Source: Methanosarcina sp. 2.H.T.1A.6 (lineage in GTDB: Archaea; Halobacteriota; Methanosarcinia; Methanosarcinales; Methanosarcinaceae). Taken from it: DNA of 33,356 nt. Positions 4,251 through 33,308 of this stretch are shown piece after piece. Numbering within the stretch: position 1 is the first letter of the stretch; every line of letters begins with the position of its first letter. The stretch is taken from assembly GCF_000979455.1 (NCBI RefSeq), contig NZ_JJOY01000021.1, positions 1 through 33,356 of the forward strand, in the 5' to 3' direction. The notes under the pieces are model-generated. The model saw only the letters and a program-made list of their open reading frames with translations. It was not told where the DNA came from and did no database searches. Both the position numbers and the translations under genes were made by a program.

Positions 4251-4307
4251 GCTGGACAATTACCGGTCCGGCCAACTGGAACTATTCTGAGATAGGAATA
4301 GAACATA

Positions 4308-4385
4308 GAAATAGAACAGCGAAATAGAACAGCGAAATAGAACAGCGAAATAGAACAGCGAAATAGAACAGCGAAATAGAACAGC
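4308..4385. repeat. 13-bp tandem repeat, six perfect copies
   Basis: The unit GAAATAGAACAGC is repeated six times without a mismatch over 78 bp, just 57 bp after the DUF1616 stop codon. A degenerate half-unit precedes it at 4294-4307. The perfect identity points to recent expansion by slippage. No ORF, hairpin or ribosome binding site is associated. It separates the DUF1616 gene from the duplicated PEF-CTERM block. Confidence 0.95.
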
Positions 4386-4869
4386 GGAATTTATTACATA
4401 AGGAAATTTTCGATGAATTTTTAATTTAAAATCTTTTTGAACTACTTTTACCTTTTATTTTCCCACCTGATATTTATTCTGTGAACTTTTTAAGTATTGA
4501 AATTTATAATATTAGTTTTTAAAAATATCCGGCTAAACTCAATTATTATTTCATTATAGGTATCCCCTCACTTTTAAAATATTAATCTGACATTTATTTC
4601 AACTTTGACAAATTTAAAGAGACTAAAGTGATACTAAATACATACGTTTTTGACAAAAAGTGAATGATTCAAGTTCCTAATAAAGTGAAGAATTGAAAAA
4701 AACTCCAGAATTGAGAAGCCAGTATATAAATAGTATATAAGCATTTTTTTGTAAATGGTACAGGTCTGACCTGTGGCATTCAAAATTCGCCATATGTTTT
4801 TATATATAATTGTTTATATTTATTAATCGAGCATCGTGGTCTTATTTTATATATTTAGTCTGCGCATCC

Positions 4870-7840: not shown

Positions 7841-8461
7841 ATGGTAAGTGTCGGTCAGGAACTATTGAACGTTCCCTTTGGGGACATGATTCGAGAAATG
7901 GCCCTTGCGATTGCAGAGGGGCAGATCGCTCTGGACATGAATTCTGTGCAGGTTGCCCAGACTCTTGCAGCAACCCAGCTTGATGCAGGAAGCGTTGTAA
8001 TGTATATTGAAGAGACCACGGATGCTGACGGCAATGTGACTGCAAGCAATGTGGTTACTAATGACAAGCCCATGTCTCTTCTGACCTACGGGCTTGAACC
8101 TCGTTTCTACGAATTTACGGAATCGATTATCGAAGTGAAGATGACAATCACCATGATGAGGGAATCTTCAACAGAACTCACTTACGGCAGAGAATTCAAG
8201 TTAAACAACCAGTCAAAAGTCACCGGCAGCATGGAGTCCGGAGGGCTTGCAAAAATCCTCTTTGGAAAGAGCAAGGGGAGCTTTGAAAATACAACATCGG
8301 TTGCCTATACCTCCACGTTTAACGCAAAATATAGCTCAAGATTTTCCTTTAAGGAAGAAGGCACAAGCCTGCTCAGGACAACCCTCAGGCCTGTCCCTGC
8401 TCCGGAGAAGATGATTCCAAAGGTGACAGTCAAAGCTGCGGCACCAGCCAGCCCTAACTGA
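7841..8461 (+). CDS. Beta-rich protein of unknown function, first gene of the PASTA cluster (DUF2589-like?)
   Basis: The protein has 206 residues and no signal peptide or membrane segment. The N-terminal helix (residues 8-46: V-P-F-G-D-M-I-R-E-M-A-L-A-I-A-E-G-Q) is rich in Ala and Gln. Its pattern of helix, then L-D-M-N-S, recurs in the next gene (L-D-L-N-S). Residues 95-185 are predicted strands, including I-I-E-V-K-M-T-I-T-M and a final strand ending L-R-P-V-P-A-P. The tail is Pro/Ala/Lys-rich. The overall plan recalls DUF2589 proteins, but this is from memory and tentative. The ATG follows AAGGGG by about 10 nt. A TATA-like TTTATACTA near 7780 is a possible promoter. The 7577-7840 gap shows nothing else. 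It probably acts in the cytosol with its neighbours. Confidence 0.75.
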   Translation: MVSVGQELLNVPFGDMIREMALAIAEGQIALDMNSVQVAQTLAATQLDAGSVVMYIEETTDADGNVTASNVVTNDKPMSLLTYGLEPRFYEFTESIIEVKMTITMMRESSTELTYGREFKLNNQSKVTGSMESGGLAKILFGKSKGSFENTTSVAYTSTFNAKYSSRFSFKEEGTSLLRTTLRPVPAPEKMIPKVTVKAAAPASPN

Positions 8462-8605
8462 AGCCTTCAATAAAAGATTTTTTACTACAGGAAGGTTCTC
8501 TTAAAATTACGGGGGACCTGACTGTAGTCACGGCAGGTATGGCTTTAAAATACCCTTTTTGCAGGCTGGCTGTATTGCCGTGTTTTTCTATACCCTTTCC
8601 GGGAT

Positions 8606-8670
8606 TTATTTCAAGGAGTTATTTCAAGGACTTATTTCAAGGACTTATTTCAAGGACTTATTTCAAGGAG
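8606..8670 (+). repeat. 13-bp tandem repeat carrying Shine-Dalgarno cores
   Basis: Five units of TTATTTCAAGGAG/C are joined without gaps, with TTATT of a sixth. The first and last units end AAGGAG and the three between end AAGGAC. The last AAGGAG (8665-8670) lies 8 nt before GTG 8679, the proposed start of the next gene. Because 13 is not a multiple of three, copy-number change would shift any frame running through the array while leaving the GTG start intact. Confidence 0.95.
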
Positions 8671-8678
8671 TTATTATT

Positions 8679-9083
8679 GTGGTTAATAACGGGGAAGAAA
8701 TCGGAGAAGTGCTTATTACCCCTCTTTCCAGGCTTCTGGGAGAAATCGGGCGTTCCGTTGCTGAGACTCAGCGGACTCTTGACCTGAATTCCATAAAGAC
8801 CCAGATAAAGATTGATGAAGAAAAAGCCCTCAGCGAGTATGACATTCAGGCTGCATGGTATCATATCCCTGAGGTCGACCTTGAGCTCAAGATGTCGCTT
8901 ACTGTGAAACTTGAAGAGGAACGGGACTCTAAAAACCGGGTCAGGGGCTACAGGCCTGTCCTCAACGCCTCTCCCCTTAATGCCTCGTACAACTCACTTT
9001 ACAGTTACGACGTGCAGGGCTCAAGCTGCATCAAAGCAAAAATAGTGTCCATTCCTGCATATTCAAAGTTAAGGGAGGAATAA
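8679..9083 (+). CDS. Small beta-rich paralogue of the preceding gene
   Basis: The GTG start gives 134 residues. I chose it because a perfect AAGGAG lies 8 nt upstream, and because homology to the 7841 protein starts here (E-V-L-I-T-P-L-S-R-L-L-G-E-I against V-P-F-G-D-M-I-R-E-M). An ATG at 8559 would add 40 residues translated from the 13-bp repeat, which is unlikely. An N-terminal helix with L-D-L-N-S is followed by strands with E-L-K-M-S-L-T-V-K-L and ends C-I-K-A-K-I-V-S-I-P. No signal peptide or membrane segment is seen. Function is unknown. The 8462-8605 gap is short and pyrimidine-rich. The gene probably belongs to one transcription unit with 7841 and 9121. Confidence 0.7.
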   Translation: MVNNGEEIGEVLITPLSRLLGEIGRSVAETQRTLDLNSIKTQIKIDEEKALSEYDIQAAWYHIPEVDLELKMSLTVKLEEERDSKNRVRGYRPVLNASPLNASYNSLYSYDVQGSSCIKAKIVSIPAYSKLREE

Positions 9084-9120
9084 TGCCCTTTTCAGGAAAT
9101 GATCTTTCAGGAGGAAGGGA

Positions 9121-10833
9121 ATGAAGAATATAAGCGAACTCAGGAGCAGCCTGGACGTCTTCAGGAAAGCAGGAAAAATAGATGCGGGCAGTTATTCCAG
9201 CATAATAACTAAACTGAAGGAGACGGAAACAGAATTTGAATCACTTCAAAAGGAAGCCCTTGTCTATAAAGAAAATTCAGACAGGCTGCTCAGGGAAAAA
9301 CTCGTCCTTGACCAGGAAAAAAACAGCCTTGCAGCGCAGGTGAAAAAGCTCTCAAATGAGAAAGCAGAGCTTGAGTCCCGGATTTCCATTTTGCAGAAAA
9401 GCAGGCCTGTACTCTCTTCTTCAAATCTTGTTAGCTCTTTTGCATCCTCACTTGCAGAAATGGACAAAGGACTTAAGAAAGTTCAGTCCGGTCCAAAGTA
9501 CCTTGTCAGCAATATGAATGTGACCTTAAAAACCAATATCGCTCTCGAAGGGGCAGAACTGAGGTTCCAGATGCCAAAAGCCGATGACATCATCAGCCCC
9601 GAAAACCTCAGCACAATAGAATTCTCCCTAAAGGCGGTTCCCGAAAAGCCGGGTATTGACTCTTATAAGGAGGTCCCGGAACTTGTGGGGCTCTCAAAAG
9701 AAGAAGCCGAAAGCAAACTGTTTGAATCAGGCTTTAAGGCAGGAGACGTCCTTGAAAAAGAAAGCAGCAGACCTCAGGGTACGGTCATAGCCCAGCTCCC
9801 CTCGGCAGGCTCCCTTGCAGAACCGGGGGCAACTGTAGACCTTACAGTTTCCAGGATTTATTCTGTAAAAGTCCCGGAACTTGTGGGGCTCGGGCTTGAA
9901 ACCGCAAAAGCCCTTATTGAAAAATCGCGGCTCCGGCTTGAAGGGGTTAAAGAAAAGCCTTCGGACAAAAACCAGGGCAAAGTCCTTGCCCAGAGCCTCA
10001 ATCCGGGTTCTGAAGTCGAAGTTAACTCTGCAATTGTCCTGACGATTTCTACTAAGATCTTCAAAGTCCCAGGCCTGCTCGGGCTTGAGCTTGAGAGTGC
10101 AAAACAGGTCATCGAAAAGTCCGGGCTCCAGTTGGGCAGGGTAAAGGAGCGGTTCTCAGACGGGAAACCAGGAGTTGTACTTACTCAGAGCCCAAACCCC
10201 GGGCTTGAAATAGAAGCAAACTCAAAAGTTGACCTTGTCGTTTCAGCAGGAGAAAAGGAAGTAGTGCTTGAAAAACCCTTGAGGACTTTCCCCGAAACTG
10301 TTGTAAAAGAAACAGTAAATAAAGCTCCGTTTGAAACTCCCTCAAAACTGCAATCCGAAACCACATACAAAGTATCCGGTACAACTTCTGCCAGTGCACC
10401 TGCCGAAGCTCAGGTAAAAATCTCTGCAGAAGCTCAGGTACAATCCCAGACAGAATCCTCAGTTAAATCTCCATCCCAGGTTGAAAATTCAGTAAAGCCT
10501 CTGAATGAGGAAGCTATTTTCAGGGGAACCACTTCAGGAGAAATCACTCTAAAACCTCCTGTCCCTCTGAAAAAAGAAACTGTAGAACCTCCGAAACCAG
10601 AACCTAAATTAGTTCCTGGCGTTATCGGGATGTCTCTTGAAAAGGCGGTCTCTGTACTCAGGGCTCAGATGATAAATGTTGGAAATATTTCGGAAGCCAT
10701 TTCGAGAGCTGCTGCCGGCACAGTTATACGTCAGAATCCGGGTGCAGGTTCTACGGTTAACCCATCGGTCCCGATGAATCTTGTAGTCTCAAAACAGGCG
10801 CCTGGAACTCAAATGCACAGGAGCATTCTCTAA
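9121..10833 (+). CDS. Cytosolic coiled-coil protein with four PASTA repeats
   Basis: The protein has 570 residues and begins at an ATG behind AGGAGGAAGG. Residues 30-95 form a Leu/Glu/Lys coiled coil. Residues 120-175 are beta-rich with V-T-L-K-T-N-I-A-L and end F-S-L-K-A-V-P, resembling the strands of the two preceding proteins. Three PASTA domains follow (about 184-244, 250-310, 315-376), each with V-P-x-L-x-G, an Ala/Glu helix, V-x-x-Q-x-P-x-x-G and V-x-L-x-V-S. A Pro/Ser/Lys linker (377-496) leads to a fourth PASTA domain (497-557). PASTA domains usually sit outside the cell on kinases and penicillin-binding proteins. Here there is no kinase, signal peptide or membrane segment, and the cells have no peptidoglycan, so the ligand is probably a protein. 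The domain call is firm; the function is unknown. Confidence 0.85.
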   Translation: MKNISELRSSLDVFRKAGKIDAGSYSSIITKLKETETEFESLQKEALVYKENSDRLLREKLVLDQEKNSLAAQVKKLSNEKAELESRISILQKSRPVLSSSNLVSSFASSLAEMDKGLKKVQSGPKYLVSNMNVTLKTNIALEGAELRFQMPKADDIISPENLSTIEFSLKAVPEKPGIDSYKEVPELVGLSKEEAESKLFESGFKAGDVLEKESSRPQGTVIAQLPSAGSLAEPGATVDLTVSRIYSVKVPELVGLGLETAKALIEKSRLRLEGVKEKPSDKNQGKVLAQSLNPGSEVEVNSAIVLTISTKIFKVPGLLGLELESAKQVIEKSGLQLGRVKERFSDGKPGVVLTQSPNPGLEIEANSKVDLVVSAGEKEVVLEKPLRTFPETVVKETVNKAPFETPSKLQSETTYKVSGTTSASAPAEAQVKISAEAQVQSQTESSVKSPSQVENSVKPLNEEAIFRGTTSGEITLKPPVPLKKETVEPPKPEPKLVPGVIGMSLEKAVSVLRAQMINVGNISEAISRAAAGTVIRQNPGAGSTVNPSVPMNLVVSKQAPGTQMHRSIL

Positions 10834-10863
10834 AGGCTCAAACTTTGATCGGCAGGTTTATCG

Positions 10864-11127
10864 ATGCCAATTGAACCACATCTTATAAAGGTTGCAGAAA
10901 ATGCTACTGCCTTTCAGGTTCAGGGAATTCTTAAAGTGGTTCTGGGAACCGGAGGGCGAATTGAAATGGTAACAGGAAAAACAATTATAGCCAGCCTTGA
11001 CAGCAACTATGCCGAATTAGTAAAGAAAACACCGGGCGTGGCGCTGGCGGGTGGGATCAGCTTCAGGGGTCGGAAGATTCCTAAAATCATAAAAAAGGTT
11101 TCAGACGAAAAACAGGCAGAATCCTGA
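10864..11127 (+). CDS. Small alpha/beta protein of unknown function, last gene of the PASTA cluster
   Basis: This 87-residue protein starts at an ATG 30 nt after the PASTA gene; GGCAGG upstream is a weak ribosome binding site. Strand and helix patterns (G-R-I-E-M-V-T-G-K-T-I-I-A-S-L, then a helix with N-Y-A-E-L-V-K-K-T-P-G-V) suggest a small ferredoxin-like fold, as in propeptide-inhibitor-like domains. That is a guess. The C-terminus is Lys/Arg-rich. No signal peptide is present. Orientation and short spacing place it in the same operon as the PASTA protein. Confidence 0.7.
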   Translation: MPIEPHLIKVAENATAFQVQGILKVVLGTGGRIEMVTGKTIIASLDSNYAELVKKTPGVALAGGISFRGRKIPKIIKKVSDEKQAES

Positions 11128-27355: not shown

Positions 27356-27811
27356 TTTTTACCTCTTTTATGTGGGGATACGCACGGAATCCCGTTTGGA
27401 ATTTTTATCCCGAATAAGGCTCTCTGTTTTCAGGCTTCAAAGCTTTTTTATGACAAATTATGATAAGTTATTTAAAACTATGCTTTGATTCAACAACCCC
27501 TGAAAATATAATCCAATATTTTTTTCCAGGAAATAGCTCATGGAAAGCGTAGTTCTTCTGGCGAGAAATGTGAGAAAAAAGGAAAGTTAACGTGTCCCGA
27601 GAAGTTCAAAACAAAATAACAGCTAACTGTATTTAAGGATTAAGACCTCTCAGAACAGGGTTTTAAGGAAGACAATAGGTGTCTCAAAACATCAACCACA
27701 TAACAATGGACGACAAATGTAAAAAATGGAATAAATAGAATATTACGGTTCAGTAAACATAATTGAGGCAATAGAAGGGAGAAAATAGAAGGGAGAAAAT
27801 AGAAGGGAGGC
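27356..27811. other. Gap between hisI and the carbonic anhydrase gene
   Basis: I see no credible gene in these 456 bases. The right side holds a 14-bp tandem repeat (27771-27810). The left side holds the minus-strand ribosome binding site and a TATA-like TTTTAAATA (about 27468-27477, minus strand) for the carbonic anhydrase gene. T-rich minus-strand tracts next to the repeat could terminate hisI. A 10-base copy of the hisI 3' end (CAGTAAACAT) occurs again at 27751-27760. Confidence 0.4.
27771..27810. repeat. 14-bp tandem repeat, 2.9 copies
   Basis: The unit ATAGAAGGGAGAAA occurs at 27771-27784, 27785-27798 and partially at 27799-27810, ending two bases before the hisI stop codon. On the minus strand it reads as T/C-rich runs, so it may act as part of a terminator. 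Confidence 0.9.
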
Positions 27812-32647: not shown

Positions 32648-33308
32648 TCCCTTTTCTTCATTTTACTACCCTGTTATCTTTTTAAAAATTCAAATATGGA
32701 TCGTTCTGCCTGAACATTTTATATCAGGTGTTCTCCTGAGCATTAATCTCAAGATTTTTCCGAGTATTTTTCTGGACGCCTTATCCAGTTCACTCTATAT
32801 ATCTTAATCTACGCTGAACACTTCAGTCTATTTTTAGGTCATAATAATCCTTCCTACGATAAGCCCTGGATTTAATGTTGAAGTATCACACTCCCTTCGG
32901 GACTTAGATAGGGGGCCGGAATAGAAAACAAGTACTTCAAATGATTCGATTCGAACCCGCTTTTAGAGAAGCATAGCTAAAAGAGAGTCAGACCATAAAA
33001 ATCAAGTAAAAAAATAACGGATGAAAATAACGGGATGAAAAAGGTAAGAAATAAAACTTAGAAAACGGTTTCAAAAGAGAAAACATATCAAAAAAATATC
33101 AGAAAAACGTATAAAAAAATAAAGGCAGACAAAATAGTCCAGAAGAGAGACAAAGTAACAAGATCAAGAAGAATAGCAGCTTCAAAGAAGTAAAACAACA
33201 GTAATATAAAAAAATCAGTATCGAAAAACAATTCAGAAAACCATTTCAGAAAAACAATTTTAGAGAAAACGATATTCAGAGTAGATTTAAAGTAGTATAG
33301 GGTGAGTT
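32648..33308. other. Gene-free region downstream of NAC and of a convergent 5S rRNA
   Basis: No gene is visible over 660 bases. From about 33000 the plus strand is A-rich, so transcripts entering from the right on the minus strand meet many T runs (for example at 33208-33213 and 33113-33121). These would end the rRNA transcript. A short G-G-T-T-C-G-A-A-T-C match near 32947-32958 (minus strand) lacks tRNA arms. CCCTTCGGG at 32893-32901 is a small hairpin. Confidence 0.5.

Follow-up and report, generated by a model that had tools for sequence, protein, structure and literature searches.

A 13-bp tandem array with repeated Shine-Dalgarno cores in front of a Methanosarcina gene is probably a slippage-born minisatellite

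The leader of ORF2 in Methanosarcina sp. 2.H.T.1A.6 carries a Shine-Dalgarno (SD) core in each of five consecutive 13-bp units, directly before the start codon. This raises the question of whether the additional cores take part in the expression of the gene or are bystanders of a repeat that happened to form there. Comparison of the window, which is the whole stretch of DNA analysed here (33,356 nucleotides), with related genomes suggests that the array is probably a slippage-born minisatellite in a gap of low constraint, in which the last SD is functional and the inner ones are bystanders. The binding site was most likely caught in the array by accident.

ORF2 is part of a gene cluster (7841-11127; Table 1), the order of which is conserved across the Methanosarcina relatives that carry it. 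A search of 30 genomes of the genus did not find the ORF1-ORF4 cluster in most of the other species. No family was found for ORF1, ORF2, or ORF4 in Pfam, NCBIfam or PHROGs, and the AlphaFold model of ORF2, based on 16 close sequences, was poor (pLDDT 44). ORF3 encodes PASTA domains, which are unusual in archaea.

Table 1. Coordinates of the features of the ORF1-ORF4 locus in the window
Feature	Position	Strand	Evidence
ORF1, 206 aa, upstream paralogue of ORF2	7841..8461	+	Paralogy by BLASTP
Conserved RNA stem-loop 1, intergenic	8484..8528	+	16 pairs, 7 with compensatory changes
Conserved stem 2 (8529-8535 with 8576-8582, CACGGCA/TGCCGTG), then T-run 8583-8587	8529..8587	+	
13-bp tandem array, TRF bounds	8602..8675	+	TRF, 5.7 copies
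Five full units TTATTTCAAGGA(G/C), last base in the order G, C, C, C, G	8606..8670	+	
AAGGAG of the last unit, likely functional SD sequence	8665..8670	+	Orthologue conservation, 16S tail pairing
TTATT, partial copy after the fifth unit	8671..8675	+	
ORF2, 134 aa, GTG start	8679..9083	+	dN/dS 0.08-0.14 vs orthologues, purifying selection
ORF3, coiled coil and PASTA domains	9121..10833	+	Gene order as in relatives
ORF4, 87 aa, conserved neighbour	10864..11127	+	

The initial annotation had described five units ending in AAGGAG or AAGGAC at 8606-8670, and both TRF and a check of the sequence confirmed the array and these coordinates (8602-8675, period 13, 5.7 copies, 95% match, score 127). The cores are AAGGAG at 8613-8618, AAGGAC at 8626-8631, 8639-8644, and 8652-8657, and AAGGAG at 8665-8670, the last being followed by TTATTATT and GTG 8679 with a spacing of 8 nt. 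Markov shuffling of the window, repeated 200 times, gave no array scoring above 65, compared with 127 in the real sequence. No ATG, GTG or TTG occurs within the 13-bp units, so the inner SDs lack a start codon at the proper spacing. The search for a second array of the unit in the genome of Methanosarcina sp. 2.H.T.1A.6, allowing three mismatches, found none; a dispersed repeat family was rejected, since the unit forms an array once in this genome. An RNA structure formed by the array was likewise rejected, as the leader with the array folds no better than shuffled sequence (z 0.18).

The position of the start codon is indicated by the comparison with relatives. In 16 orthologues from Methanosarcina and Methanolobus the protein starts at or near the position of GTG 8679, behind one conserved SD, and most of them have no usable upstream start. 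The Methanosarcina sequences align from residue 1, with GTG, ATG or TTG at the start and one SD before it, and those of Methanolobus begin with TTG one codon earlier, at an equivalent place and with an SD in front. The paralogue ORF1 also aligns with ORF2 from residue 1 of both proteins (BLASTP, E 8e-9). The reading frame continues without a stop for 58 codons before GTG 8679; no ATG, GTG or TTG was found in the open upstream stretch of six orthologues (L002, L004-L008). Because of the residue-1 alignments and the absence of upstream starts in these six, GTG 8679 is likely the start of ORF2 and TTG 8559 would be accidental. The comparison thus agrees with the earlier proposal of a start at GTG 8679, with its SD in the last unit and paralogy beginning at residue 1. 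The same proposal had added that steps of 13 bp would change the frame of any upstream start, which is moot because neither TTG 8559 nor the other in-frame upstream start, at -99/-120, is conserved.

Every Methanosarcina orthologue whose ORF2 is intact keeps the AAGGAG before the start. Pairing was scored against the genome's own 16S tail (...GGATCACCTCCT), with the exact mature end assumed. The last unit forms a 5-bp core (AGGAG with CUCCU) of about -6.6 kcal/mol, and an inner AAGGAC unit reaches -4.7 kcal/mol. The SD of the Methanolobus orthologues, AAGGAGGT, scores -11.4 kcal/mol against the same tail. The last-unit SD is sound but middling: it had been called a perfect ribosome-binding site (RBS) 8 nt before GTG 8679, of which the spacing stands, whereas "perfect" does not fit a 5-bp core of -6.6 vs -11.4 kcal/mol.

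The number of units differs strongly among relatives. The genus search covered 30 genomes, with a full ORF2 in nine (Methanosarcina sp. 2.H.T.1A.6 included) and a decayed copy in one, and a scan of species genomes added Methanosarcina and Methanolobus relatives. A single unit is present in G007, G009, UBA8098, ERenArc_MAG2, KYL-1, BL5_bin.6, BM5_bin.6, UBA9310, and the Methanolobus relatives; SD and start are intact in the eight single-unit Methanosarcina leaders, which include three further MAGs (BL5_bin.6, BM5_bin.6 and UBA9310). G010 has about two degenerate units, STD2_179 has 2.7 copies, and DH2 reaches 9.7 copies with units of 12 and 13 nt. Most inner units of DH2 have CAAAGA, CAAGAA or CCATAA in place of CAAGGA, or retain only CAAGGAT, and the unit before its start keeps CAAGGAG intact. 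DH2, whose array is the longest and the most decayed, retains only the C-terminal part of ORF1 (L016 9476-9733). In G008 the decayed remnants of ORF1 and ORF2 come with about two units that can still be made out, with AAGGAT as the last SD and CTG at the position of the start codon. The expectation that copy number would shift with the gene left untouched was borne out between lineages, with 1, about 2, 2.7, 5.7, and 9.7 copies among species. Copy number is not constant between species, each represented by one genome in the comparison with relatives that had been proposed. Support in the locus tree was 25-50 at most in-group nodes, too weak to count expansions or to tell independent ones from a shared expansion followed by loss.

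That one SD is enough follows from the mostly single-copy orthologues, from the lost or weakened inner SDs of DH2, and from the start-adjacent SD kept everywhere. The last copy alone looks functional, and its sole use is what we infer from these leaders. The alternative view of the initial annotation, in which the extra units are potential landing sites for ribosomes, does not agree with these data if they are taken as selected, since most orthologues have a single SD, the inner AAGGAC is weaker, and the inner cores of DH2 are mostly lost or weakened. The motif was also not kept in every unit over evolution, as would be expected of a contingency locus, given the inner SDs of DH2 and the inner AAGGAC of the present array.

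A path to the array by slippage can be proposed from the single-copy leaders. The ancestral leader would have been one unit (CTTATTTMAAGGAGTTATT..GTG). The leader of G007 holds TTATT twice, 13 bp apart, flanking the SD (TTATTTAAAGGAG TTATTATTGTG), the leader of UBA8098 (L006) has TTAT at an equal 13-bp lag, and the other single-copy leaders are without the full pair of TTATT words. Two such words around the SD would give a slippage register, and the TTATT at 8671-8675, with a TTATT 13 bp upstream, is probably the microhomology pair that seeded it. Slippage between them would duplicate the exact 13-mer together with its SD, and new units would enter upstream, leaving the last SD, the 8-nt spacing, and the start codon unchanged. 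ORF2 would tolerate added units because each of them goes upstream and spares these three elements. The coding sequence of ORF2 is under purifying selection while the length of its leader varies. The sequences of the three inner units do not differ, and AAGGA is retained in all five, which would be predicted by a recent expansion and equally by selection for SDs. The slippage mechanism, the TTATT seed, and near-neutrality are read from the sequences, and the survival of an array at an RBS could reflect tolerance or benefit.

Tandem arrays are common in this genus. Sampled stretches (L028-L128) of four Methanosarcina genomes, 2.03 Mb in total, contained 653 arrays with a TRF score of at least 60, that is 266 to 412 per Mb depending on the genome, mostly noncoding and built from a different unit each time; Markov-shuffled sequence gave 0-2 arrays per 400 kb. 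For Methanosarcina sp. 2.H.T.1A.6 there were 222 arrays of many periods in 833 kb, and extrapolation from the survey gives about a thousand or more arrays per Methanosarcina genome. This density makes an array in a leader unremarkable in itself and, with each array having its own unit, makes slippage the default origin. The window holds four further arrays with units of 13 or 14 bp (115-162, 4297-4390, 27770-27809, and 33223-33280, by TRF), all with different units.

The position over an RBS is less common. The RBS zone was defined as 5-15 nt upstream of the start, with genes from a simple custom caller whose start calls are approximate. Eleven out of 566 noncoding arrays overlapped such a zone, compared with about 46 expected from random intergenic placement, a depletion of about four-fold, and the deficit was present in each of the four genomes. 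Four arrays of at least 2.7 copies overlapped the RBS zone, and an SD-like core is repeated in two of them, the array at 8602-8675 and L086 1387-1451 of G004, where a 19-bp unit (3.4 copies) repeats the core up to the start codon. A candidate in the genome of Methanosarcina sp. 2.H.T.1A.6 (L034 5987-6023) has a 15-bp unit in 2.5 copies with an SD-like core up to the start. The deficit suggests that arrays at RBSs are purged or do not form, and that the array of ORF2 is a rare survivor. Its survival may be explained by the geometry of upstream insertion, and a benefit is also possible. A search of one literature collection found no precedent for tandem Shine-Dalgarno sequences.

Upstream of the array, a two-stem structure with a T-run (8484-8587) lies between the paralogous ORF1 and ORF2, and the array is located in the interval that separates it from the RBS of ORF2. 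In a MAFFT alignment that was not fitted to the structure, 89% of cells pair, compared with 31-52% in slid controls, and changes on both sides were found in 8 out of 23 pairs. RNAalifold independently predicted 21 of the 23 pairs. A covariance model detected the structure in 10 out of 30 genomes, once in each and always at the ORF1-ORF2 locus. At the equivalent place, the Methanolobus orthologues have a hairpin that differs in sequence and is followed by a T-rich tail, as judged by eye and from the folds of L022 and L025. The Rfam search of the window gave no match. The structure and its T-run may serve to terminate or process transcripts of ORF1. In L132 (G008) and L138 (G023), ORF1 and ORF2 are decayed remnants and the RNA structure is still recognisable.

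Lying exactly between the structure and the RBS, the array might act through its length and weak structure, parting the stem and T-run from the RBS or altering the accessibility of the latter, with the SDs irrelevant. We consider this unlikely, since single-copy species keep structure and RBS close together and ORF2 conserved. As copies are added, the predicted cost of opening the region from -20 to +13 around the start drops from 10.7 kcal/mol to about 8-9, alternating slightly between odd and even numbers, but past two copies the predicted shifts of about 1-2 kcal/mol do not exceed model error. With two or more copies instead of one, opening the start region is predicted to cost 1-3 kcal/mol less, which is close to model error. 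Copy number need therefore not be without effect, and a length or accessibility effect of the array is possible according to these models.

The number of SD units could also set the translation of ORF2 relative to its paralogue ORF1, as a slippage-driven rheostat working via standby binding or access to the last SD; this appears rather improbable. About as little credit is given to the version in which extra SDs recruit 30S subunits near the start by standby binding, so that their slippage-set number fixes the expression of ORF2. The five successive AAGGA cores with no start codon among them would suit it, as would the rarity of SD-covering arrays in the genus, beyond plain random placement; nonetheless, one unit suffices in most orthologues, the inner AAGGAC is weaker, the inner cores of DH2 are mostly lost or weakened, and the inner SDs lie at least 21 nt from the start, outside the usual spacing. 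Tuning by copy number is a candidate hypothesis with little evidence behind it, and is not the best-supported reading.

It is very improbable that an RNA-binding protein or an SD-masking small RNA binds the single-stranded array at multiple sites, one per repeated unit. A small RNA that masks a ribosome-binding site has been described in M. mazei (review PMC3600222), and the TAACTGA repeats upstream of Beggiatoaceae starts were proposed as such sites (PMC4679880), but the array of the 13-bp unit is unique in the genome and is not retained among relatives, so the unit has no regulon. Translation from TTG 8559, with the array as an N-terminal extension, is scarcely credible despite the 58 open codons, as each 13-bp step would alter the frame, the alignments with the paralogue and the orthologues begin at residue 1, and L002 and L004-L008 lack an upstream start codon, and this extension was rejected by the orthologue comparison.

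Variable tandem repeats in bacterial promoters or leaders can cause phase variation. As in those systems, a change of copy number near an expression signal could alter the output of ORF2, with the variation known here between species only. Among described repeats, a probable slippage-born minisatellite is closest to the satellites defined as tandem arrays with a unit of 10-200 nt in at least four copies, in which Methanosarcina is the richest archaeal genus under a stricter definition, mostly with short units, and whose birth the survey authors attributed to DNA replication anomalies (PMC6749651). The array at 8602-8675 falls within this definition with its period of 13, 5.7 copies, and 95% match. 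It resembles the Methanosarcina short-unit satellites in genus, unit of 10-30 bp, at least four copies, unrelated unit, and noncoding position, as well as in the array-rich genome (222 arrays of differing units in 833 kb) and the copy number unstable between relatives (1 to 9.7). Unlike them, it covers an RBS, where arrays are depleted in the present survey. Similar to the TAACTGA repeats of marine Beggiatoaceae (PMC4679880), it consists of short direct repeats over the RBS region, ending a few nt before the start. However, those repeats are one heptamer at about 170 sites with little SD character, whereas the ORF2 array is a single locus with a 13-bp unit and an SD per unit; it occurs once in the genome, and the unit does not recur before many genes. 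The tandem repeats of Borgs (PMC9879509) are likewise recent, locus-specific, fast-changing direct repeats in Methanosarcinales, but they are extrachromosomal, A-enriched, and often coding, in contrast to the chromosomal leader of ORF2.

Almost no Methanosarcina minisatellites overlap an RBS, though by extrapolation the genomes hold about a thousand or more. An SD-bearing array is rare because arrays are depleted about four-fold over RBSs, yet the sequences give no evidence that this one is a device. Its relatives provide a natural series of 1, 2, 3, 6, and 10 copies over an otherwise conserved leader and gene, with which the role, if any, of extra upstream SDs in an archaeon could be examined. 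If the extra SDs do nothing, the ORF2 array shows how arrays are tolerated.
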